Source: a virus
IMG/VR virus record: IMGVR_UViG_3300033148_001870
Location: 1 to 32,029 of that record
Length of the DNA: 32,029 bases
Strand: one strand, 5' to 3'
A program made the translations under genes and the position numbers. The notes under the pieces are model-generated. The model saw only the letters and a list, made by a program, of their open reading frames with translations, was not told the origin of the DNA and searched no databases. Each line of letters begins with the position of its first letter. Positions within the stretch are counted from its first letter, which is position 1. This document shows, piece after piece, positions 10,445 through 21,192 of this stretch.

Positions 10445-11338
10445 ATGTCAACTTCAATCGACACCTCGTTTATTACAAGTTACGAGGCAAAAGTACATGA
10501 GGTCTTCCAACGACAAGGAAGTTACCTTAAAGATTGTGTTCGTGTTAAGGATAATGTTATAGGATCTACAGCCGTTTTTCAGAAAATCGGCAAAGGCACC
10601 GCAACGACCAAAGCACGGCACGGAACAATTACGCCGATGAACCAACAACATACGGCACCTTCAACCACACTGGCTGACTTTTACGCAGGCGACTGGGTAG
10701 ATAAGCTGGATGAGGCAAAAATCAACATCAACGAGCGTGACGTCATTGCAAGTGGCGGCGCGATGGCGCTTGGCAGGAAAGTAGACGATCAGATCACCAC
10801 GACTCTTGATACCACTTCTCAATCAACCGTTACACTAACCGTTACTTCAAAGGCAACCGTTCTTGCGACGGCTATCGAGTTTACTGAAGCGGCGTGGTCA
10901 AATGACGTACCGAATGACGGCCAAGTTTATGCGGTCGTAACCCCTCGGTATTGGTCACAACTCATGACTTTGGATCAGTTTTCACGGTCAGAATGGGTCG
11001 GCGCTGATGGAATGGCCTTTACTAATGGCCCTGCGATTGGACGAGGTAAGTTCAAGAACTGGATGGGGATCATGTGGAAGATGCAAACAGGTCTTCCTGG
11101 GGCTGGTACAGCAACTGCTAAAACTTTTGTTTGGCATAAAATGGCGGTTGGTTACGCCGTTGCACAATCTGCCGGTAATATTGCCGGAAACGAAGCTGTG
11201 GCGGCTGATATCACCTGGCATGGTGATCGGGCGGCACATTTCGTCAACCACATGATGAGCGGTAACAGTGTTATGATAGATGACACTGGTGTTATTGAGG
11301 GGAACCTTGATGATACTGCTGCAATCGTAACTTCATAG
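10445..11338 (+). CDS. Major capsid protein
   Basis: The 297-residue product has the features of a podovirus coat protein: N-terminal helical part (SYEAKVHEVFQRQGSYLKDC), a charged loop (GTATTKARHGTITPMNQQ), the LADFYAGDWVDKLDEAKINI segment and a C-terminal domain with VVTPRYWSQLMTLDQFSRSEW. It follows the scaffold and precedes a small head protein, the normal order. Presumed HK97 fold. It has its own promoter candidate, a long structured leader and a good ribosome binding site, which fits high expression. Confidence 0.85.
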   Translation: MSTSIDTSFITSYEAKVHEVFQRQGSYLKDCVRVKDNVIGSTAVFQKIGKGTATTKARHGTITPMNQQHTAPSTTLADFYAGDWVDKLDEAKININERDVIASGGAMALGRKVDDQITTTLDTTSQSTVTLTVTSKATVLATAIEFTEAAWSNDVPNDGQVYAVVTPRYWSQLMTLDQFSRSEWVGADGMAFTNGPAIGRGKFKNWMGIMWKMQTGLPGAGTATAKTFVWHKMAVGYAVAQSAGNIAGNEAVAADITWHGDRAAHFVNHMMSGNSVMIDDTGVIEGNLDDTAAIVTS

Positions 11339-11347
11339 GAGGCTATC

Positions 11348-11668
11348 ATGGCTTATACAGAAGGTGGTCTTTCCTTAATTTCTTCAGTAAATGGGTTTGG
11401 GCTTTATCGTTATGATTCTCTCGATGATGTTGATTTGGTCGAAGATGCTGGCTATTTCAACAATCTGGATGATAATCTTAACCTTGCAATAGGCGATATA
11501 ATCCACGCTTTTGATTGGACAACCGCAGTTCGCTCAGGGACGTTGGCAGGCTATAAGAAATTTGCCGTTACCAACGTGATCTCAAACGATGCTGCCTCCA
11601 GTGCAGGCGCTGTAAATATTGCTGAAATTGGTGTATCAACAGACGGAGCAATCTCCTCTGGCGATTAA
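11348..11668 (+). CDS. Small head protein, possible decoration protein (106 aa)
   Basis: Starts MAYTEGGLSLISSVNGFGLYRY; beta-rich, acidic, with AGGAGG at ideal spacing. It sits nine bases after the capsid gene and before a strong terminator, so it should be made at high level together with the coat protein. Position and size suggest a head decoration or cement protein, but there is no sequence proof. Confidence 0.6.
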   Translation: MAYTEGGLSLISSVNGFGLYRYDSLDDVDLVEDAGYFNNLDDNLNLAIGDIIHAFDWTTAVRSGTLAGYKKFAVTNVISNDAASSAGAVNIAEIGVSTDGAISSGD

Positions 11669-11674
11669 TGAGGG

Positions 11675-11700
11675 AGGGGGCTTTTTGCCCCCTTTGTCTT
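11675..11700 (+). terminator. Rho-independent terminator after the capsid operon
   Basis: Stem AGGGGGC (11675-11681), loop of five T, complementary GCCCCCT (11687-11693), then a T-rich tail TTGTCTT. It ends the capsid unit and marks the left border of the sugar cassette, whose first start codon overlaps the tail. Confidence 0.85.
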
Positions 11701-12184
11701 GACAGGAACGTGCATTGTTGCTGGCAGCGCGAGTTGTTTGCATGAAGATCTTGGAAAAGCCGGTGATTTCCCGGTTATAGCAGTCAATGGCGCGTCAAGA
11801 GAAATTAAAGCATTCGCGCTTTATTCACAACACCCAGAAAAATTCTTAAGCGCAAGATGGATTCATTGGCAAAAAAAGTTTCATAAAGACTTTACTGTTA
11901 ATAGTTCCATTTATCATGAGTGTGTAGATCATGTATGGGATATTAAAAACGGAGGCAGCTCCGCTTGGGGGGCGCGTAAAATGGCATCTTTGATGGGGTT
12001 TGATAAAGTCATCCTTTGTGGCTGCCCAATGAAGCCTGGGCCTTATGTCGGTGGTCATAATATGGGTGGTTTTATGCATAAAGAGGATGTGGTTGAAGTT
12101 TTACTAAACTATATCAAGAATGATACGAAGTGGCATAAAGGCTGCATCAGCATGAGTGGGGCTACCAGAGACGTTCTATGCTGA
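11699..12184 (+). CDS. MptE/DUF115-like or sialyltransferase-like Rossmann protein
   Basis: 161 residues. The N-terminus CIVAGSASCLHEDLGKA ... VIAVNGA has the nucleotide-binding look of DUF115/MptE-like proteins and of some phage sialyltransferase-like enzymes; later come SAWGARKMASLMGFDKVILCGCPM and a GYVGGHN-like loop. It probably handles a nucleotide-linked sugar. The TTG start lies inside the terminator tail with no ribosome binding site, and no better start exists without losing the first strand, so the gene may be poorly expressed or its 5' end may have been cut by the insertion. Overlaps the next gene by seven bases. Confidence 0.5.
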   Translation: MTGTCIVAGSASCLHEDLGKAGDFPVIAVNGASREIKAFALYSQHPEKFLSARWIHWQKKFHKDFTVNSSIYHECVDHVWDIKNGGSSAWGARKMASLMGFDKVILCGCPMKPGPYVGGHNMGGFMHKEDVVEVLLNYIKNDTKWHKGCISMSGATRDVLC

Positions 12185-12702
12185 CAGTTGCTTGTGTTTT
12201 ATCTCCCGGCCCAACTTACAACCAATCCCACGTTCACAGATTAAGACAACAGCTTATAGGCAGAATAAACCAGCCTTTTGAGTTTGTTTGTTTAGATGAT
12301 TCGCCTTACCCCGGCTGGTGGGCAAAAATAGATTTATTTAAACCCGGACGATTTACCGGACGAGTCTTGTATTTTGATCTCGATGTTACGATTATCTCAA
12401 ATCTGGACGAAGTGGCGGAATGCCCTTCTTTTACGGCGGTAAGAGACTACTTAAATAAAAGTCTAATTAATTCAAGCGTGATGGTGTGGGATGCGGGTAC
12501 ATTAGATCATGTTTATAAAAAGTTCAGCCTTGATATGGCAGACAAGTTCCCCGGCGATCAGGAATATATAAATTCAGTGAGCATCCCTTCCAAATTCCCT
12601 AAAAAATGGTTTCCGTCTTATAAGCATGATTGCAAGGATGAAATCCCTGAAGGGGCTAAAGCTATTATTTTTCATGGAAAACCTAAGCCTTGGGATCTCT
12701 GA
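12178..12702 (+). CDS. GT8-like glycosyltransferase
   Basis: 174 residues. The key piece is GRVLYFDLDVTIISNLDEV, with the DxD metal- and nucleotide-sugar-binding motif at D67-L-D69, typical of family 8-like GT-A enzymes. An acceptor-side stretch with PGDQEYIN (about 122-129) and a C-terminal IIFHGKPKPWDL (matching the usual HF-G-x-KPW end) strengthen this. It should transfer a sugar from a nucleotide donor. No membrane segment. Starts at ATG overlapping the previous gene; stop shares bases with the next ATG. Confidence 0.75.
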   Translation: MLTVACVLSPGPTYNQSHVHRLRQQLIGRINQPFEFVCLDDSPYPGWWAKIDLFKPGRFTGRVLYFDLDVTIISNLDEVAECPSFTAVRDYLNKSLINSSVMVWDAGTLDHVYKKFSLDMADKFPGDQEYINSVSIPSKFPKKWFPSYKHDCKDEIPEGAKAIIFHGKPKPWDL

Positions 12703-14048
12703 TGGATTTAGTATTAATTAATCCCGGAGACCAGGAAAAAATATACCAGCATTTAAGCGGTGGGTTAACCGCCAAAGAGCAGCCTCTTTGGTGCCGGTTG
12801 ATTGCTGGGTATATTCGAGACAACGGCTATAGCGTTCAGATCATTGACGCTGACGCTGAAGACTTGACCGCGAAAGAAGTCGCTGCAAGGGTAAATCAGA
12901 TAAACCCTCGTCTTGTAGGTATGATCGTTTACGGTCATCAGCCCTCGGCCTCAACGCAGCAAATGGAGTCGGCAGGCGAGATATGTGATCTTATTGACTT
13001 GCCTATTGTTATTGCCGGAGGGCATGTCTCAGCCTTACCAAAAAGAACGCTACGAGAAGAATCTGTTGGATGTGTTGCGGTAGGCGAAGGCGCTATAACA
13101 ATCAAAGAGCTACTTGAAGGCAAGCCTATGTGTGAAGTCTATGGGCTTGTCTGGGCAATAAGCAATCCATGTATACCTGTCACAAATCTACCTTCGCCTT
13201 TACTTGATCTAGATCAGCTATCGGGTAACACATGGGATTTACTCCCAATGGACAAATACCGCGCACATAACTGGCAGGGACAAAGACAACCCTATGCTTC
13301 GATTTACACAAGTCTTGGATGCCCTTATCAGTGTTCGTTTTGTTGTATTAATGCCCCTTTTGGGGGAAGTGGATACAGAACTCGAAAGCCTGAAGATGTG
13401 ATAGCTGAAATTAAAATGCTTCACGATACTTACGGGGTAAAGACATTCAAAATCATAGATGAGATGTTCGTTTTAAAGCCATCTCATTACATACCGATTT
13501 GCGAAGGACTGGCTGAACTAAACCTAGATCTAAATATCTGGGCATACGCAAGAATTGATACCGTTAAACCTGAAACATTAAATCTTTTACGCAAAGCTGG
13601 CATACAATGGTTGGCGCTAGGTATCGAATCCGGCTCTGAATATGTCAGGGATGGCGCAGACAAAACATTGTCAGAAAAAGATATTTATACCATTGTCAGA
13701 GAAATCCAGAAGGCCGATATTAAAGTCCTGGGAAACTTTATTTTTGGCCTGCCCGACGATACAATGGATTCCATGTGTGAAACGCTTGATCTAGCCATCA
13801 AATTAGAGTGCGATTTTGCGAACTTCTATTCTTGTCAGGCGTATCCGGGGTCGAAGCTTTTTAATGAAGCCAACCCTGACGATTTACCTGATTCATGGTC
13901 TGGTTATTCTCAACATTCGGCAAACTGTAAACCCTTACCCACTAAAACCTTAACCTCAAAAGAAGTGCTACAGTTTAGAGATTATGCTCATTCTACTTAT
14001 TTTGCAGATATCCCGGCTTTATCCGCGCCTTTGAAGAGAAATGGATAA
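12702..14048 (+). CDS. B12-binding-domain radical SAM protein
   Basis: 448 residues. The first 200 form a B12-binding-type Rossmann domain (LINPGDQE at the start, AGGHVSALPKRTL in the GG loop region), although the cobalt-ligating DxHxxG is not seen. The radical SAM core has C207-x3-C211-x2-C214 (GCPYQCSFCC) for the 4Fe-4S cluster, followed by FKIIDEMF, an ALGIESGSE loop and FIFGLPDDT. Members methylate unactivated carbons or rearrange sugars and other small molecules. Within a sugar cassette, C-methylation or deoxygenation of the sugar is a fair guess. I start at ATG 12702 because a TTG four codons earlier adds nothing. Confidence 0.8.
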   Translation: MDLVLINPGDQEKIYQHLSGGLTAKEQPLWCRLIAGYIRDNGYSVQIIDADAEDLTAKEVAARVNQINPRLVGMIVYGHQPSASTQQMESAGEICDLIDLPIVIAGGHVSALPKRTLREESVGCVAVGEGAITIKELLEGKPMCEVYGLVWAISNPCIPVTNLPSPLLDLDQLSGNTWDLLPMDKYRAHNWQGQRQPYASIYTSLGCPYQCSFCCINAPFGGSGYRTRKPEDVIAEIKMLHDTYGVKTFKIIDEMFVLKPSHYIPICEGLAELNLDLNIWAYARIDTVKPETLNLLRKAGIQWLALGIESGSEYVRDGADKTLSEKDIYTIVREIQKADIKVLGNFIFGLPDDTMDSMCETLDLAIKLECDFANFYSCQAYPGSKLFNEANPDDLPDSWSGYSQHSANCKPLPTKTLTSKEVLQFRDYAHSTYFADIPALSAPLKRNG

Positions 14049-14622
14049 GCAGGAATTAATCGACTTCGAGGAAGGGATTGCCGCTTCGTTTAATAATGGA
14101 GAAATCCCCTACCCAGTCCATTTTTCAGACGGTAATGAAGATCAGTTAATCGAGATATTCAAAGAAATTAAATCGGATGACTGGGCTTTTGGATCATGGA
14201 GGATGCACTATCAAGCTTTATTAAAAGGGGTTTCAAGTGAAGCCTTGAAAGAAGCCATATTTAGTGGCGAATCAATGGCTCTACGCTTCCCTAAAGAGCG
14301 TGTATACGGCTCTGCTATCGTAGGAGGCACGATCCCAATCGCATTAGGGGTAGCGCTAGGTATCAAGCGAGAGGGCGGCTCAGAGCGCGTCTGGTGCTTT
14401 CTTGGGGATATGACAGCAGAGACAGGCATATTCCATGAGGCTAAAAAATATGCAGAAAACTTTAACCTACCAATTAACTGGGTTATTGAAGATAATGGTA
14501 TATCAGTATGTACTAATACTAAAGAAGCATGGGGTGGCGATCTGAGTCTAACCGGAGTCAAGCGGTTTAAGTATCAATCTCGCTGGCCGCATTGTGGTAG
14601 CGGAGTAAGAGTCAATTTCTAG
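14041..14622 (+). CDS. TPP-dependent enzyme, alpha (PP-domain) subunit
   Basis: 193 residues, resembling the alpha subunit of 2-oxo acid dehydrogenase E1 or the PP half of transketolase. The thiamine-diphosphate motif is G122-D123 (LGDMTAETG) to N152 (EDNGIS), the classical GD-x(25-30)-N. The AFGSWRMHYQALLKGV and GSAIVGGTIPIALGVALG stretches match E1 alpha. It is much shorter than normal E1 alpha (about 320-400). The C-terminus YQSRWPHCGSG is the usual end of small PP-type subunits, so it looks complete. Partner is encoded next. In a sugar operon it could transfer a two-carbon unit. Confidence 0.75.
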   Translation: MDKQELIDFEEGIAASFNNGEIPYPVHFSDGNEDQLIEIFKEIKSDDWAFGSWRMHYQALLKGVSSEALKEAIFSGESMALRFPKERVYGSAIVGGTIPIALGVALGIKREGGSERVWCFLGDMTAETGIFHEAKKYAENFNLPINWVIEDNGISVCTNTKEAWGGDLSLTGVKRFKYQSRWPHCGSGVRVNF

Positions 14623-14647
14623 TTATAAACAAGCGCTATCAGAGGCC

Positions 14648-15121
14648 ATGCAGGAATTGGCCGTCGATCCACGCACAGTTTTCTTGGGACAAGGATGCCG
14701 CGACAAAGGCACATTCATGTCAATGACGCTCGAAAATGTACCGCTTGAAAAACGTATCGAGATGCCGGTTGCAGAAGAAATGCAGATGGGGATCTCAATT
14801 GGCATGGCGATGACTGGATTGGTTCCGATTACTATTTACCCACGATTTAATTTTATTTTATGCGCCATGAGCCAGCTTGTGAATCATGTGGAGGTAATGC
14901 AGCCTCATGTTATAGTTAGAGTTGGGGTAGGATCTGAGGAACCTTTATATCCAGGCCCTCAGCACGTTGGTAACTTTAGTAATGCCTTTAGGGAAATGAT
15001 GCCGAATACAAAAATTATTGAATTAGAGAAAGCTGAACAAATTATACCAGCGTATAAAGGCGCGATTGAATACCAAGGCCCGACCATTCTTGTGGAAATA
15101 GCGGATTTATATGAAATTTAA
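14648..15121 (+). CDS. TPP-dependent enzyme, beta (Pyr-domain) subunit, minimal
   Basis: Pyrimidine-binding domain of transketolase/E1 beta: ELAVDPRTVFLGQGC, then RIEMPVAEEMQMGISIGMAMTG (containing the glutamate that activates thiamine), RFNFILCAMSQLVNHV and a GPQHVGNFSNAF loop. There is no transketolase C-terminal domain, so it is about half of a usual E1 beta. The ATG at 14648 falls inside the first conserved helix: the frame is open 11 residues upstream and reads ISSYKQALSEA, exactly how E1 beta proteins begin, from an ATT at 14615 with GGAG before it. The true start may therefore be AUU. Together alpha and beta form a bare catalytic core. Confidence 0.75.
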   Translation: MQELAVDPRTVFLGQGCRDKGTFMSMTLENVPLEKRIEMPVAEEMQMGISIGMAMTGLVPITIYPRFNFILCAMSQLVNHVEVMQPHVIVRVGVGSEEPLYPGPQHVGNFSNAFREMMPNTKIIELEKAEQIIPAYKGAIEYQGPTILVEIADLYEI

Positions 15122-15266
15122 TCCTAACTTATGGCTTATTAATCTTGGAATATGGATTTGTGGATTAGTTATTAATCTAATTCAACAAGAATGGACTGAT
15201 GCGTTATTATTCTTCGCGCTAAGTTATACAACTTTTATTTTGTGGCTAGAAGCACGAAGCAAATGA
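15111..15266 (+). CDS. Two-helix small membrane protein (51 aa)
   Basis: Two hydrophobic segments (about residues 8-23 and 31-45) separated by QQEWTD, starting MKFNPNLWLINLG and ending LEARSK. Overlaps the TPP beta gene by 11 bases and the dehydratase start as ATGA, so it lies exactly in the operon chain. Topology is a hairpin with both ends probably inside. It could anchor the sugar enzymes to the membrane or flip a lipid-linked product, but no motif supports a specific function. Confidence 0.6.
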   Translation: MKFNPNLWLINLGIWICGLVINLIQQEWTDALLFFALSYTTFILWLEARSK

Positions 15267-16351
15267 AAGTTAATTTACATGAGCCCTCCTTTGGCGAAGA
15301 AGAGATCAAAGCTGCCGTTGAGGTTTTGAGATCTACCAATGTAACTTCTGGTGACAAGGTAAGGGAGTTTGAATCAAAGTTCGGCCCTTATGCAGTTATG
15401 TGTAATTCGGGATCATCTGCTAACTTACTTGCCATCGCAACACTTTGTAACCCATTAAATCCTAAATTAAGCCCTGGCGATGAGGTTATTGTATCAGCGC
15501 TCTCTTGGTCAACGACAGTTTGGCCTTTGGTTCAACATGGGTTAGTGCCTGTCATCGTAGATATCGATCCAGAGACTTTAAATATCTCTCCCGGAGAAAT
15601 AGAAAAAGCAATTAGCCCAAAAACTAAGGCAATCATGCCGGTTCATGTTTATGGAAACCCCTGCGACATGGCGGCCATAAATAAATTTGGGCTTATCGTT
15701 ATATCTGATTGCTGTGAAGCATTAGGAATTGACGTAGGGCAGTCTGACTACAACACCTATAGTTTTTACTTCTCTCATCATATTACGACGTTAGAAGGCG
15801 GCATGGTGGTCGCGCGGTCTCAGGAAGACGCCGATCTGCTAAAAAGCATACGAGCACATGGCTGGACGCGAGAAATGAAAAATCCGCCCCATCACGACGG
15901 GATTGATGATCGATTCCTTTTTATAACAGCCGGATACAATTTAAGGGCTTCTGAAATTAATGCGGCTATTGGCCTTATTCAGTTAGGTAAACTGGATGGC
16001 TTTATTGAAAGCCGAAGAAACGCAGCCAGGATGTTAACCGAAATATTTGAAGGTTATGTAGGCATACAAAAAGACATGGGTTCCTCTTGGTTTGGATTTC
16101 CTATTATCACAGACGACGCCAAGGAGCTAAGAGCGCATTTTGAAAAGGACGGTATCGAAACAAGACCGTTAATCTGTGGAAATATTGCAAGACAGCCCGG
16201 AATGAAATTATACCCTCATCGTGTGGTTGGCGATTTACCAAACGCAGACGACGTTATGGATTATGGTTTTTCTATCGGGTGCCACCAAGACATCGGTGTG
16301 AATGAATGTGAATATATCGCCGCTTCATTTAAAAAGTTCAAGTATGCCTAA
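15263..16351 (+). CDS. PLP-dependent NDP-4-keto-sugar 3-dehydratase (ColD/RfbH-like)
   Basis: 362 residues of the DegT/DnrJ/EryC1 fold. In ordinary aminotransferases the PLP lysine sits in a K-x-I-T-x-x-E-G-G context; here it reads SFYFSHHITTLEGGMVV, so H172 takes the place of lysine. That change is the hallmark of ColD and RfbH, which use PMP to remove the 3-hydroxyl of a 4-keto-6-deoxy sugar. The ring-nitrogen aspartate is in VISDCCEALG. RfbH-type iron-sulphur cysteines are not obvious, which favours ColD. ATG 15263 overlaps the membrane peptide stop. A normal sugar aminotransferase is thus unlikely. Confidence 0.8.
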   Translation: MKVNLHEPSFGEEEIKAAVEVLRSTNVTSGDKVREFESKFGPYAVMCNSGSSANLLAIATLCNPLNPKLSPGDEVIVSALSWSTTVWPLVQHGLVPVIVDIDPETLNISPGEIEKAISPKTKAIMPVHVYGNPCDMAAINKFGLIVISDCCEALGIDVGQSDYNTYSFYFSHHITTLEGGMVVARSQEDADLLKSIRAHGWTREMKNPPHHDGIDDRFLFITAGYNLRASEINAAIGLIQLGKLDGFIESRRNAARMLTEIFEGYVGIQKDMGSSWFGFPIITDDAKELRAHFEKDGIETRPLICGNIARQPGMKLYPHRVVGDLPNADDVMDYGFSIGCHQDIGVNECEYIAASFKKFKYA

Positions 16352-17318
16352 TGCGTTAATAACGGGCTGCGCGGGCTTTGTGGGGAGTCATCTCGCGGAA
16401 TATCTGCTCGCTAATACCGATTGGAATATTTATGGGTTGATGCGATGGAGTGAACCACTTGATAACCTTGTAAATATAAAAGATGAAGTTATCTTACTAG
16501 AAGGCGACCTAACTGATTCTGGATCGCTTAATAAAGTCATCGAACAAAGCAAACCAGATTATATATTTCATCTTGCAGCTCAAAGTTACGTGCAAGCAAG
16601 TTTTGTTTATCCCGTAAAGACTTTACAGACTAATGTAATCGGAACCACGAATTTACTGGAGGCAATTAAAGATCTGGCCCCAGACGCCTGGATACATAAT
16701 TGCTCATCTAGTGAGGTCTACGGGAAAGTCGATAAAGATTATGGGGCAATAGACGAAGACTGCCCTTTCGCCCCCGCAAGCCCATATTCGATTTCTAAAA
16801 TAGCTCAGGACATGCTCGGTAGGTATTACTATGAGGCTTATGGGTTAAAAATCCTGACTACCAGAATGTTTACCCATACCGGCCCACGCAGAGGCGATGT
16901 ATTTTGTGAGTCTACCTTTGCAAAACAGGCTGCCATGATAGAGGTAGGTCTTTTAGAGCCGCCGATTAAGGTAGGGCACCTTGATTCAATCAGGACAATA
17001 GCAGACGTAAGAGACGCAGTAAGAGCTTATCACATGCTTTTGACGGTCAATCCAATACCGGGGGAGGCGTACAACATAGGCGGAAATCATACCTGCAAGG
17101 TTGGGGATATTCTTGCTGAGTTAAACAAAAACAACTATCCAGTAGAGAGCGATCCGGCAAGAATGAGGCCGTTAGACGCTAATTATCAAATACCTGATTG
17201 CTCCAAGTTTACCGGCCATACCGGATGGAAGCCTGCATTTTCTTTTGAAGAAACCATGAAAGATTTATTGGAATACTGGGAAGAACGAGTTAAATATAGT
17301 GTTGTGATACAACGATGA
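16344..17318 (+). CDS. NDP-sugar 4,6-dehydratase/epimerase of the SDR family
   Basis: 324 residues, extended SDR. The NAD(P) motif is T7-G-C-A-G-F-V-G14, the catalytic set includes SSSEVYG and Y148-x3-K152 (SPYSISK), and the later MFTHTGPRRGDVFCEST and VGHLDSIRTIADVRDAVRAY stretches are those of GDP-mannose 4,6-dehydratase and its relatives, including GDP-heptose dehydratase. It should create the 4-keto-6-deoxy intermediate that the neighbouring ColD/RfbH-like enzyme needs. The natural substrate nucleotide (GDP, CDP or other) cannot be read from sequence. The ATG at 16344 overlaps the upstream gene by eight bases. Confidence 0.8.
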   Translation: MPNALITGCAGFVGSHLAEYLLANTDWNIYGLMRWSEPLDNLVNIKDEVILLEGDLTDSGSLNKVIEQSKPDYIFHLAAQSYVQASFVYPVKTLQTNVIGTTNLLEAIKDLAPDAWIHNCSSSEVYGKVDKDYGAIDEDCPFAPASPYSISKIAQDMLGRYYYEAYGLKILTTRMFTHTGPRRGDVFCESTFAKQAAMIEVGLLEPPIKVGHLDSIRTIADVRDAVRAYHMLLTVNPIPGEAYNIGGNHTCKVGDILAELNKNNYPVESDPARMRPLDANYQIPDCSKFTGHTGWKPAFSFEETMKDLLEYWEERVKYSVVIQR

Positions 17319-17710
17319 TCCTCGTTTCTGGTGGATTTGACCCAGTACATACCGGGCATTTAGATTATCTTTTGGCAGCGGGTGTATACGGTAAAGTCAT
17401 TGTTGCCTTAAACTCCGACGAATGGCTTGTCAGGAAAAAGGGTTATTATTTTATGTGCTGGGATGATCGCAAACGCATCCTTGAAAGTATACGTTACGTT
17501 CATAAAGTAGTCGCAGTTAATGACTTAGATGGTACGGTATGCGCTGCCTTAAAATCAGCGGCTCCTCGTTACTTTGCTAATGGTGGTGACAGGGAAACCT
17601 CTAACCCAAAAGAACACGATATGTGTAAAAAATTAAATATTACTGAAATGTTTGGCGTTGGGGGCGGGAAAACTCGCTCATCAAGCGAACTGATAAAGGG
17701 GATTAAATGA
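17315..17710 (+). CDS. Cytidylyltransferase-type sugar nucleotidyltransferase (RfaE2/TagD-like)
   Basis: 131 residues. The N-terminal GGFDPVHTGHLDYL holds the HxGH motif (H12, H15) of the nucleotidyltransferase superfamily. A further ANGGDRETSN and GGGKTRSSSELI (equivalent to the ISSTxLR signature) support RfaE2/HldE-C or glycerol-phosphate cytidylyltransferase relatives. It should couple a sugar or polyol phosphate to a nucleotide. Beside a heptokinase-like gene, an activated heptose is a natural product. Starts in an ATGA overlap. Confidence 0.8.
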   Translation: MILVSGGFDPVHTGHLDYLLAAGVYGKVIVALNSDEWLVRKKGYYFMCWDDRKRILESIRYVHKVVAVNDLDGTVCAALKSAAPRYFANGGDRETSNPKEHDMCKKLNITEMFGVGGGKTRSSSELIKGIK

Positions 17711-18678
17711 TTATTGTTAAAACGCCGTATAGAATTTCATTTTTTGGAGGCGGGACGGACTACGAAGCGTGGTATTCAAAATTCGGCGGCAAAGTGCTTA
17801 CCTGTACAATAGATAAATATTGTTATGTTTGCTTAAGGTATATGCCAGCTTTTCTCGGATCAAAATACATTGTATTCTGGTCGAAAATGGAAAAGGTTAA
17901 TCATGTAAAAGATATTCAGCATAATGGTGTTAGAGGATGCCTTGAATACTTAGGAATTGATGATGGCATAGAAGTAAATCATGCTGGCGATCTTCCTGCC
18001 AGATCGGGGCTAGGATCATCATCATCATTTACGGTTGGCATGTTGCATGCGTTACATTTGCTGAAAGGCAATAAGCCAGATAAAGCTCTCTTGGCGCAGC
18101 AAGCCATCAAGGTTGAGCAAGAAGTCCTGAAGGAGACTGTCGGCATTCAAGATCAGATCCAGTGCGCGTGGGGAGGAATTAATCATATTAAGTTTGATAC
18201 AGATGGAGAATATAGCATAAGGCATTTATCTTTGGAGGAAGGAATAAAGCAAAAAACGCAAGACCATCTGATTATGTTTTTTACCGGCCTTCAAAGAACT
18301 GCATCTGATATCGCAACAGAGCAAGTCAGTAACGTAAATCGTAAGCAGGCTGAATTACACGCTATTGCAGATCTGGTCGATCCAGCAACAACCGCGCTTA
18401 AAAAAGGTGATATGAAAGAATTTGGAAGACTCCTCCATGAGTCATGGATGTTAAAGCGCACCTTATCAGACAAGATAACCACCCCTGAGCTTGATGATAT
18501 CTATGGAAAAGCGAGAAGTGTTGGCGCGTATGGCGGGAAGCTTCTCGGAGCAGGCGGAGGCGGATTTTTCTTATTTTGCATAGATCCGGGGAAAAGGCAG
18601 GAGCTAATAAATAAATTAGGTCTTTTGCACGTACCAGTAAGATTTGAGTTTGGTGGCAGTCAGATCGTTGAAATCTAA
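17707..18678 (+). CDS. hddA: GHMP kinase, D-glycero-D-manno-heptose 7-phosphate kinase-like
   Basis: 323 residues. The start TPYRISFFGGGTDYEAWY and TIDKYCYV are the HddA signature. The GHMP phosphate-binding loop is LPARSGLGSSSSFTVG (about 96-111) and the C-terminal motif is GAYGGKLLGAGGGGFF. In bacteria HddA phosphorylates heptose 7-phosphate at C-1 before guanylylation. No isomerase (GmhA) or phosphatase (GmhB) lies in the window, so these would come from the host or the substrate differs (fucose and other kinases share the fold). Overlaps the previous gene by four bases. Confidence 0.8.
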   Translation: MIIVKTPYRISFFGGGTDYEAWYSKFGGKVLTCTIDKYCYVCLRYMPAFLGSKYIVFWSKMEKVNHVKDIQHNGVRGCLEYLGIDDGIEVNHAGDLPARSGLGSSSSFTVGMLHALHLLKGNKPDKALLAQQAIKVEQEVLKETVGIQDQIQCAWGGINHIKFDTDGEYSIRHLSLEEGIKQKTQDHLIMFFTGLQRTASDIATEQVSNVNRKQAELHAIADLVDPATTALKKGDMKEFGRLLHESWMLKRTLSDKITTPELDDIYGKARSVGAYGGKLLGAGGGGFFLFCIDPGKRQELINKLGLLHVPVRFEFGGSQIVEI

Positions 18679-19546
18679 AATTCTTTTCCTGACAACCCCG
18701 ACAAATGATTGTAATAATCATGTAAGGGCCTTTCGATCATTTGCTCCAGCAGAGCATTTAATCATGAGGACAAAAGGTATTCGTGTAGACGGGCATATAG
18801 TAAAACAGGTTCGTGATGTAAACCCCGATGTAATTTTTTATATAAGTGCAAATCAAGGCCCATGCGCTTTAAAGTGGCGAACGCTCGTAGATTTAAAGAC
18901 AATCTCGAAAACAATCAATTTATGTTCAGATGCAATGGACAGACCCTGGCACGGCGTATTAGATTTATACAAAAAGCATTCATGTTTCGACCTTCAGGCA
19001 TCTATTGATGGATCGAGATATGAGGCGATGGATTTAGCTGCGCTTACTCCTGTTGACCCAACATATTACTCCAACGATGTTGACAAAGATATTAGGTGCG
19101 GCTTTTCTGGATCAGTGGGAACTTCAGGGCAACGGGCAATGATTATCAATTCTCTTGAATGGTTCGGTAATTTGACTATTAGACTAAGAACCTTGAAAAA
19201 GGGATATGAAGATCACGTTAATTTTTTAAAACGATGTAAAATGATTTTAAATACATCATGGACAGGCACAGGACACGCCCACCATATCAAAGGAAGAGTA
19301 TTAGAGGCAGGGTGGGCTAGGTGTGCATTGCTGGAATCACACAGCTCCCCGATTGGAGAGTGGTTTTCGGAAGACTGTTACTTCACATGGCGAAGCGCAA
19401 AAGAAGCCGCTGAGATTATCCATGACGCAAGCGATAAGGAAGTTGCTGAAAAGGCAAAAAGACTTGCTGAAGAAGTAAGAGAACGATTCACGCCAAAACA
19501 GATTTATGGAAAAATGTTAAGCCTTATCGGAGTTGAAGGGGAATAA
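18668..19546 (+). CDS. GT-B glycosyltransferase, CgeB-like
   Basis: About 292 residues, starting at TTG 18668 (LKSKILFLTTPTND) just before the kinase stop; a TTG eight codons upstream is an alternative and neither has a clear ribosome binding site. The second half has KGRVLEAGWARCALLES ... GEWFSEDCYFTWRSAKEAAEII, the donor-binding region of CgeB/GT4-type enzymes, and ends with RERFTPKQIYGKML. It should transfer a sugar from a nucleotide donor. No membrane segment; cytosolic. Confidence 0.7.
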   Translation: MKSKILFLTTPTNDCNNHVRAFRSFAPAEHLIMRTKGIRVDGHIVKQVRDVNPDVIFYISANQGPCALKWRTLVDLKTISKTINLCSDAMDRPWHGVLDLYKKHSCFDLQASIDGSRYEAMDLAALTPVDPTYYSNDVDKDIRCGFSGSVGTSGQRAMIINSLEWFGNLTIRLRTLKKGYEDHVNFLKRCKMILNTSWTGTGHAHHIKGRVLEAGWARCALLESHSSPIGEWFSEDCYFTWRSAKEAAEIIHDASDKEVAEKAKRLAEEVRERFTPKQIYGKMLSLIGVEGE

Positions 19547-19557
19547 AAATCTGGATA

Positions 19558-20139
19558 TTGCCCTCTAGAAGCAGACCGCACAATATAAAACGTTTAGTCC
19601 AAGCCTATTTACACACAAAAGCCTCAACGCCAGTATTATTGCGTCTTGATGAAGACGACCCTGTATTAGGGGGTTACGATGTTCCCGATACATGGGCTGT
19701 CGTTGTAGGGAAAAGACTTCCTTTATCTGAATACTATAATGAAATTCCACTTAATCTTGACTGGTATGGATTTATTGCAGACGATGTTGTGCCAGAGACT
19801 TTACGCTGGGATACACGCTTAATAGAGGCAGCCGGATCAGATGGTATGGCGGTTCCGTCTGGGGGGAATGGAACGCCTCATTTTGTGTTAGGCGGTGATT
19901 TAGTACGAGAAACAGGCTGGGTATGCTTACCGGGCCTGGACAGAATTTATATAGATACTGTCTGGGGGGGCATTGCCAAAAAAAGAAATGTATTAAGGTA
20001 TGTACCTGATGTTGTTTTAAGGCATCATCATTTTAGTAATGGCAAGGCGCTATTTGACAAGACCTATAAAAAGCCTAATAAGGCAAATGACAAGCTAATA
20101 TATGAAACATGGAGAAAAGACTATGATTATACACCCTGA
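19558..20139 (+). CDS. GT-A-like glycosyltransferase (phage/polysaccharide type)
   Basis: 193 residues from the first standard start, a TTG. Sequence features: PSRSRPHNIKRLVQAYL near the N-terminus, LRLDEDDP (acidic donor-site motif, about 29-36), YGFIADDVVPET (DD, acidic), and PGLDRIYIDTVWGGIA. The frame is open further up and reads IKIWI before LPSRSR, from an ATA at 19543 overlapping the stop of the upstream gene. That piece is the expected first beta strand, so the gene probably lost an ATG by one base change or starts at AUA. Function: sugar transfer, target unknown. Confidence 0.65.
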   Translation: MPSRSRPHNIKRLVQAYLHTKASTPVLLRLDEDDPVLGGYDVPDTWAVVVGKRLPLSEYYNEIPLNLDWYGFIADDVVPETLRWDTRLIEAAGSDGMAVPSGGNGTPHFVLGGDLVRETGWVCLPGLDRIYIDTVWGGIAKKRNVLRYVPDVVLRHHHFSNGKALFDKTYKKPNKANDKLIYETWRKDYDYTP

Positions 20140-20578
20140 AATAATTGTTACACCAGATTTGCCAACGATTAAATTTAAACAACCAAGAGATCAAGTTGAT
20201 CTTGATGTTGAATTGCCGAAAATTCTCCATACGCAAGGGTGGGGATGTGGCACCTATTTTCATATTCAATTCGTAAATCATGAAAAAACAAAATTACTAG
20301 CCTCTGCTACCTTTGTTGTGAGTGAAGAAACAGAATCTATACACACAAGCGACAATCAGTATAATCCTGTAACCAAAACGATTTTCACCCGTAGCGCGAC
20401 AAGAATAGGGGATTGGTGGGAGAAATCAAAAAACCCAAGTGAAAATATTAGCGAGAAAATTAGTGCAAAGGTTAAATGGAATCCTGGCAAAAAGGTACAT
20501 CAGGTAATTGAAGATGGAAAGATTATTTATGAAAACGCAGACAAGGAGCAAGCGCTTAAAGTTGCAGAGGCCGCGTAA
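20123..20578 (+). CDS. Conserved phage protein before tail tubular A (151 aa)
   Basis: Start chosen at ATG 20123, with GGAG eight bases ahead; a longer version from 20102 overlaps the glycosyltransferase more. The middle has PRDQVDLDVELPKILHTQGW and GTYFHIQFVNHEKTKLLASA, then VTKTIFTRSATRIGDWW. I associate this pattern with a conserved, uncharacterised podovirus protein next to the tail genes. Probably a beta-rich virion protein. It marks the return from the sugar cassette to the phage core. Confidence 0.6.
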   Translation: MIIHPEIIVTPDLPTIKFKQPRDQVDLDVELPKILHTQGWGCGTYFHIQFVNHEKTKLLASATFVVSEETESIHTSDNQYNPVTKTIFTRSATRIGDWWEKSKNPSENISEKISAKVKWNPGKKVHQVIEDGKIIYENADKEQALKVAEAA

Positions 20579-21192
20579 TGTCCACTGATACCGATCTTGT
20601 AAATACCGCCCTACGCAGAATAGGGGCTAACCCAATCACTTCATTAGCTGACGGAAGTACAAACGCTAACACAGTAAATGATATTTATACTGAATTGCGT
20701 GACGATCTGCTTAGGTCTCATCCGTGGAATTTTGCAACAAAGCGCGTAAAGCTTGCACAATCGGCAACTACTCCAGTATTTGAGTTTGATTACGGCTATC
20801 CATTACCTGCTGACTGGTTAAGAACTATGTCAGTTCATGATAATGACGCAGGGCATGGCACTATTTTGTACCGTATGGAGTTAATTAATGGGCAGAAATC
20901 AATTCTTACATCAAGAAGTGAAATCTGGCTGCGTTACGTGTCTATCGTAACTGACACAAATTTAATGTCTGCTGATTTCAGGAATGCGCTTTCGTTTGTA
21001 ATCGCAAGGGATTTATCAATACCACTTGCCTCATCAAATACGCTGGAAGAAAGAATGTCAAAAAAAGCCGACAGAGCCATCGCAAGGGCGCGTTCTTCAG
21101 ATTCAATGGGTGGATTCCCCGAACTTAGACCCAGAGGCTCATGGGCGAGCGCGAGAGGCGGAAGACGTAGAAATGACTTCCTCTCAGATTAA
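20578..21192 (+). CDS. Tail tubular protein A (T7 gp11-like)
   Basis: 204 residues. The opening TDLVNTALRRIGANPITSLADGS and the LRDDLLRSHPWNFATKRVKL segment are typical of tail tubular A of podoviruses, which makes the dodecameric adaptor between portal and nozzle. C-terminus is basic and serine-rich (RARSSDSMGG). The start overlaps the previous stop as TAATG. Confidence 0.85.
   Translation: MSTDTDLVNTALRRIGANPITSLADGSTNANTVNDIYTELRDDLLRSHPWNFATKRVKLAQSATTPVFEFDYGYPLPADWLRTMSVHDNDAGHGTILYRMELINGQKSILTSRSEIWLRYVSIVTDTNLMSADFRNALSFVIARDLSIPLASSNTLEERMSKKADRAIARARSSDSMGGFPELRPRGSWASARGGRRRNDFLSD

Follow-up and report, generated by a model that had tools for sequence, protein, structure and literature searches.

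In Campylobacter jejuni HS:5, a 4,6-dehydratase and a C3-dehydratase have been shown to convert GDP-heptose to GDP-3,6-dideoxy-4-keto-heptose (PMC10440746). Two-carbon branches at C4 of sugars have been credited to TPP proteins, either the two-protein AviB1/B2 or the single-chain YerE; a pyruvate-based C4-branching was proposed for AviB1/AviB2 in avilamycin, and in yersiniose the known acceptor of TPP-dependent C4-branching is a 4-keto-3,6-dideoxy sugar (PMC4753412). Here we analyze a podovirus locus that holds, between capsid and tail genes, a predicted 4,6-dehydratase, a C3-dehydratase and a two-part TPP enzyme, together with transferases. We propose, with slightly less than even confidence, that its product is an NDP-activated, C4-branched 3,6-dideoxyheptose that is put on a virion protein. 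A broader reading, which we regard as possible and hold tentatively, is that the capsid-to-tail slot is an exchangeable “sugar coat” locus through which entire pathways, for branched dideoxyheptose and for nonulosonate, are traded, such that the glycan differs among the virions of one lineage, and that the heptose version makes an undescribed C4-branched sugar by an uncharacterised pathway of O-antigen type shared with many bacterial phyla.

Layout of the window

The window, i.e., the whole stretch of DNA analyzed, is a linear IMG/VR virus contig of 32,029 bases. Its plus strand carries, in this order, genes for terminase, portal-type adaptor, scaffold and major capsid protein, the sugar cassette, and genes for tail tubular proteins A and B, which, judged from sequence, is a podovirus gene plan; the closest isolates by capsid protein are Pelagibacter and Vibrio phages. 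A preliminary description had placed a sugar pathway between head and tail genes of a podovirus, and this setting was confirmed, the flanks matching portal-type adaptor, major head protein, and tail tubular proteins. No recognisable replication genes were found in the window, so the genome is probably incomplete. Four ORFs at the left end (211-1858) lie on the minus strand, opposite to the cassette.

The cassette (11699-20139) consists of 11 head-to-tail plus-strand ORFs, each 130 aa or longer, and lies downstream of the major capsid protein gene and upstream of the tail tube genes. Twelve overlapping genes had been counted before; eleven stand, most of them with overlaps of between a few and a few tens of bases, and a 51-aa ORF between D2 and E (15111-15266) is a possible twelfth. 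This small ORF has two hydrophobic stretches, and the corresponding gap is absent in relatives. The cassette genes run in the direction of the structural genes, and such co-directional, overlapping genes alongside structural genes suggest late co-expression with them. A consensus scan of the window for promoters and terminators gave none beyond the level of shuffled sequence. The sugar-enzyme motifs noticed earlier are matched by curated models (Radical_SAM, B12-binding, E1_dh, Transket_pyr, DegT, GDP_Man_Dehyd, CTP_transf_like, and GHMP N and C). The features, all on the plus strand, are as follows:

10445..11338, +, major capsid protein, left hotspot boundary (phrog_3437 major head protein, E=1.3e-49)
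11348..11668, +, g11348, small beta-rich protein adjoining the capsid gene (position kept in relatives; AF2 pLDDT 85)
11699..12184, +, A, predicted GT42-like (CstII/MAF-fold) transferase (AF2 pLDDT 94; Foldseek to PDB)
12178..12702, +, B, glycosyltransferase (phrog_1962, E=1.8e-23)
12690..14048, +, C, B12-binding radical SAM enzyme (Radical_SAM 3.9e-16; B12-binding 1.4e-15)
14041..14622, +, D1, TPP-binding (PP) half of a split E1/transketolase-type enzyme (E1_dh 1.6e-15; phrog_34187, fused form)
14648..15121, +, D2, PYR half of the D1/D2 enzyme (Transket_pyr 1.2e-12)
15242..16351, +, E, predicted ColD-type PMP-dependent C3-dehydratase (top PDB match ColD 2gms, 224 bits)
16302..17318, +, F, SDR nucleotide-sugar 4,6-dehydratase (top PDB match 7us5)
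17315..17710, +, G, HxGH nucleotidyltransferase of the TagD / HldE C-domain superfamily (CTP_transf_like 2.1e-8; rfaE_dom_II 1.1e-11)
17707..18678, +, H, GHMP kinase, HddA/WcbL-like (HddA model 147 bits)
18644..19546, +, I, GT-B type glycosyltransferase (Glyco_trans_1_2 1.4e-7)
19558..20139, +, J, glycosyltransferase (phrog_14945 7.5e-26)
20578..21192, +, tail tubular protein A, right hotspot boundary (phrog_394 1.8e-48)

Enzymes of the cassette

By their nearest relatives, H and F point to a heptose. The best PDB matches of H are 4usm/4usk (sugar kinase), 3k85, and 4n3o; its 147 bits to the HddA model (NCBIfam NF049969) are far under the equivalog cut-off of 600, though no other model scores better, and this model and the top PDB relatives alike are heptokinases. 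G is, by family, a putative heptose-1-P nucleotidyltransferase. F, which probably starts at ATG 16344, carries the catalytic motifs S-S-E (SSSEVYG) and YxxxK (YSISK). Its top PDB match is the GDP-D-glycero-D-manno-heptose 4,6-dehydratase 7us5 (305 bits, runner-up 193), so that by sequence F appears DmhA-like, with a GDP-heptose 4,6-dehydratase as its nearest characterised enzyme by a wide margin. In a search of the window for the complete GDP-D,D-heptose pathway, H and the HxGH protein G were present, and GmhA, GmhB, and HddC were missing.

E, the probable start codon of which is ATG 15266, had been called ColD/RfbH-like, and the first half of this name is retained. A His replaces the PLP-binding Lys, and SHHITTLEGG aligns with SHHIATMEGG of ColD; by sequence, E is a ColD-type C3-dehydratase with an NDP-4-keto-6-deoxy sugar as the predicted substrate. 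The RfbH/DdhC (E1) type was ruled out because the [2Fe-2S] cysteine motif is missing (there are no cysteines in E at the CYCAPGC..C stretch of 3bcx) and because the score against the RfbH equivalog model, 258 bits, is under the cut-off of 423.

The TPP function read in the preliminary description is upheld by family models, the single gene is not: there are two short E1-like proteins, D1 (~190 aa) and D2 (160-180 aa), with no C-terminal transketolase domain. The motif GDM...EDN of D1 is intact in 26 viral sequences, and D2 retains the catalytic Glu (AEEM motif). A YerE-type single-chain TPP flavoprotein was not found in the cassette, D1 and D2 being separate E1_dh and Transket_pyr proteins. 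One frameshifted gene was ruled out, as the two halves are encoded separately in the mapped viral and bacterial relatives and fused solely in cyanophages. Upstream of 14648 (14615-14648), D2 has no ATG, GTG, or TTG, yet the frame is open, apparently homologous, and overlaps the D1 stop. The closest models of C are HpnJ (NCBIfam, under the cut-off) and BchE, and the closest PDB entry is 9ccb (AprD4); the substrates of these proteins are varied. B12-radical-SAM proteins include C-methyltransferases, and C may catalyze methyl transfer or a sugar rearrangement.

The four transferase-like proteins noted earlier hold up as PHROG glycosyltransferases (B and J), a Glyco_trans_1_2 protein (I), and a GT42 fold (A). 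In a profile search, A had no sequence relatives in the PDB, and the best PDB matches of its predicted fold in Foldseek are CstII sialyltransferases (E~1e-3, prob 1.00, TMq 0.56-0.67); from this model, A is predicted to be a GT42/MAF-fold transferase. MAF enzymes glycosylate flagellin. Relatives of J in Streptomyces phages are annotated as glycosyltransferase; in Streptomyces phage Comrade (L181:7983-9078), the J homologue has an annotated heptose nucleotidyltransferase directly after it, and both lie among replication genes.

The capsid-to-tail slot in related phages

Relatives were collected by scanning with D1 and, separately, with the capsid protein. The same gene order was found in other phages, as had been suggested for a check: in seven contigs (L002, L003, L004, L027, L036, L037, and L042), A and B followed by C, D1, and D2 lie between capsid and tail, and E to J are present up to contig ends. 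The catalytic motifs are kept in at least nine related podophages at 45-67% identity. Bar occasional sequences, these are GDM...EDN (D1), the catalytic Glu (D2), His (E), HxGH (G), GLGSSS (H), and CxxxCxxC (C); SSE/YxxxK of F is kept in close relatives. Recurrence at the same place in independent viral contigs, with catalytic residues kept, indicates that the cassette is not a chance arrangement, and an artefact or misassembly was ruled out by the identical order. In L050 and L052 the cassette is rearranged and G was not seen; the contig of L031 ends inside C. The cassette-bearing record L042, at 96 kb, is far larger than the others and has a thymidylate-synthase-family gene (L187 is grouped with it).

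One cassette-bearing podophage (L037/G008) encodes a GmhA (192 bits, slightly short of the 209 bits of the equivalog cut-off) as well as a GmhB over its subfamily cut-off, which supports a heptose precursor. Two larger virus records and the annotated cyanophages P-TIM68 and S-SM2 likewise have GmhA-like genes next to the cluster.

The 40 complete capsid-to-tail intervals, which include near-duplicates, range from 487 to 9,904 bases with a median of 1,254; that of the window is ~9,240. In L025, with a capsid protein 90% identical to that of the window, the interval is 1,204 bases and the cassette is absent. L058 (2837-11202) and L074 (9136-18389) have instead a nonulosonate-type (Pse/Leg-like) set, with NeuB, CTP_transf_3, DegT aminotransferase, a His_biosynth-type protein, and a methyltransferase in common, plus GNAT in L058 and a Polysacc_synt_2 dehydratase in L074. 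These differences argue that the slot is, by gene content, a swappable sugar hotspot. In other relatives it holds methyltransferases, a sulfotransferase, TupA, an HlyC-like acyltransferase, and glycosyltransferases, such that glycan synthesis and modification appears to be its theme. Three HNH endonucleases are also among the hotspot ORFs of relatives, and the HlyC-like protein, of which there is one, belongs to the RTX acyltransferase family. L049 has A, B, F, I, and J and lacks C, D, E, G, and H, so that the transferase set seems able to accompany another pathway or a shorter one. Distances of capsid and cassette genes are weakly correlated (rho -0.14 to 0.41); therefore, there is no clear co-inheritance of cassette with capsid, and the sequences are consistent with shuffling among phages.

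For g11348, a fold search with the AF2 model gave no PDB match. This protein has short and long forms among relatives, the short form ending in a C-terminal Ala/Ser-rich tail, which most of the phages with A have; the short form occurs in 17/18 phages with A versus 3/11 without A (Fisher p=3e-4; forms were classified by hand, and the test ignores relatedness). This protein is a possible candidate for a decoration protein and glycan acceptor.

A bacterial counterpart

Counterparts of C, D1, D2, E, and H are also closely clustered in bacteria of many phyla (e.g., L118:6155-16309). Among 79 bacterial loci (L102-L180; L101 was left out), 42 hold at least 18 kb, and in these D2 (42/42), E (41/42), H (40/42), and C (39/42) lie within 6.5 kb of D1. 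The sources are Nitrospirota, Verrucomicrobiota, Pseudomonadota, Planctomycetota, and others; Betaproteobacteria and Pelagibacteraceae are represented as well. E is of the His (ColD) type in 73 of the 78 aligned sequences, which include those of the window and L101. L101 (WGED01000516.1), filed as a Cyclobacteriaceae MAG, falls within the podophage D1+D2 clade; it was rejected as a bacterial locus, being a phage contig with tail tube genes 75-76% identical, and its binning is possibly a host hint or contamination.

In Nitrospira L118, the order is rSAM, GHMP, SDR, D1, D2, E, NTP_transferase, and SDR, followed by Wzm/Wzt. A search of bacterial O-antigen loci had been proposed, and in this one case the core cluster does lie beside O-antigen export genes, so that its product there would be destined for LPS or some other surface polysaccharide. 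Neither the C-H-D1-D2-E pathway nor the phage cassette was found described in the literature searched, coverage of which was partial; the set is apparently an undescribed bacterial sugar pathway.

Proposed pathway and target of the sugar

By family membership and precedent, the following chemistry is proposed. GmhA from the host (from the phage in one relative) would provide D,D-heptose-7-phosphate, which H would phosphorylate at C1; a GmhB would take off the 7-phosphate, and G would activate the heptose to NDP-heptose. F would remove water across C4-C6 to give a 4-keto-6-deoxy sugar, and E would remove the C3 hydroxyl to give the 3,6-dideoxy-4-keto sugar. D1/D2 would attach a two-carbon acyl unit, donated by a 2-keto acid or a ketose, at the C4 carbonyl, C would methylate or rearrange the branched sugar, and A, B, I, and J would transfer the product or assemble a short glycan. 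The reactions of H, F, and E are supported by family and precedent; we infer that the TPP enzyme adds at C4, and likewise the nucleotide, the function of C, the order of steps, and late expression. The proposal of a C4-branched 3,6-dideoxyheptose follows from the heptose-like H and F, the ColD-type E, and TPP C4-branching of 4-keto-3,6-dideoxy sugars. Thus, the pathway outlined in the preliminary description stands at family level for activation, 4,6-dehydration, C3-dehydration, the TPP step, and transfer; its guesses “branched” and “heptose-based” fit together, since F and H are closest to heptose enzymes and a relative has GmhA and GmhB. There is no obvious candidate in the cassette for a reductase of the TPP product.

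As to the target, we lean toward the virion. This is suggested by the position among structural genes, which is a circumstantial pointer, the soluble transferases, the missing O-antigen export and polymerase genes, the GT42/MAF fold of A, and the exchange of sugar modules next to a capsid that is conserved; g11348 or a capsid or tail protein may be the acceptor. The main alternative, which we consider rather unlikely, is that the same sugar is made to alter host LPS or capsule, e.g., to block superinfection or to keep progeny off debris. The bacterial counterpart adjoining Wzm/Wzt in L118 would fit such a role, and with four transferases an LPS chain might be lengthened. However, no clear transmembrane segments were found in the cassette proteins (mean hydropathy over 19 residues <1.9 in all), no family match to a flippase/ligase or membrane glucosyltransferase of Gtr-type O-antigen conversion was found in the cassette, Wzy_C was not found in cassette-bearing virus records, and the cassette is placed among structural genes.

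The C4-branching step itself has an alternative, which we consider unlikely: the TPP enzyme may perform ketol chain extension or use a free keto acid, the product being an unbranched higher-carbon or dideoxy sugar. D1/D2 belong to the E1/transketolase superfamily, are split, lack the C-terminal transketolase domain, and are unlike YerE, a characterised C4-branching enzyme. Conversely, they are tightly linked to a ColD-type C3-dehydratase in phages and bacteria alike, the arrangement expected if a 4-keto-3,6-dideoxy sugar is the acceptor, as in the C4-branching proposal.

Glycosylation of phage DNA is established, and a glycan shielding the DNA of this phage from restriction is quite improbable. 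The window is without early genes, so base-modification genes could be outside it, and a thymidylate-synthase-family gene occurs in one 96-kb cassette-bearing record; yet it is absent in the window and in the other 11 records searched, many of them fragments, and the cassette is located among late structural genes. A small remaining share of probability falls to targets other than virion, LPS, and DNA. It is highly improbable that the cassette is a functionless passenger recently captured from a host O-antigen locus: homologous clusters do occur in bacteria, but the podophage copies form one deep D1+D2 clade (support 87/90, core 100/99) apart from bacterial and other viral copies, the phages are 45-67% identical to each other with catalytic residues and order conserved, which indicates an old, maintained cassette, and frequent inactivating mutations were not noticed in the relatives read.

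Comparison with known systems

If the preferred reading is true, a very small phage devotes about a quarter of a 32-kb record to one rare sugar, and relatives exchange sugar pathways while the capsid is retained, making virion glycan identity a fast-evolving trait. The locus would also be a tractable entry to a C-branched sugar pathway that occurs widely among bacteria and is undescribed, and the question of virion versus LPS becomes directly testable.

Mycobacteriophage Che8 resembles this case in its capsid glycan and phage-encoded glycosyltransferases (cited in PMC11256854); a dedicated rare-sugar synthesis cassette is not described in the text consulted, and the glycan of the present phage is a prediction from its genes. 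The cyanomyoviruses P-TIM68 and S-SM2 have a fused D1-D2 (“transketolase central region”), an HxGH heptose transferase, and a phosphoheptose isomerase; they differ as large myoviruses with other genes, and their clusters are outside the head-to-tail-tube interval in the stretch seen. The bacterial C-H-D1-D2-E cluster has five core families and the His-type C3-dehydratase in common with the phage, whereas L118 adds NTP_transferase, further SDR genes, and O-antigen ABC export, bacterial E is ~30% identical to phage E, and A, B, I, and J are transferases of the phage's own. In the YerE (yersiniose) and AviB1/B2 (avilamycin eurekanate / paulomycose) systems, the proposed substrate of a TPP protein is likewise a 4-keto deoxy sugar; in contrast to the two E1-like proteins of the phage, the cassette of which has no ketoreductase, YerE is a flavoprotein made of one chain, whereas the AviB1/B2 complex consists of two proteins, like D1/D2. 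C. jejuni HS:5 shares the 4,6-dehydratase and then the PLP C3-dehydratase acting on an activated heptose, with an HddA kinase upstream (PMC10440746). Compared to HS:5, the phage has an HxGH nucleotidyltransferase in place of HddC, has neither a C5-epimerase nor a C4-reductase, and adds TPP and radical-SAM enzymes.
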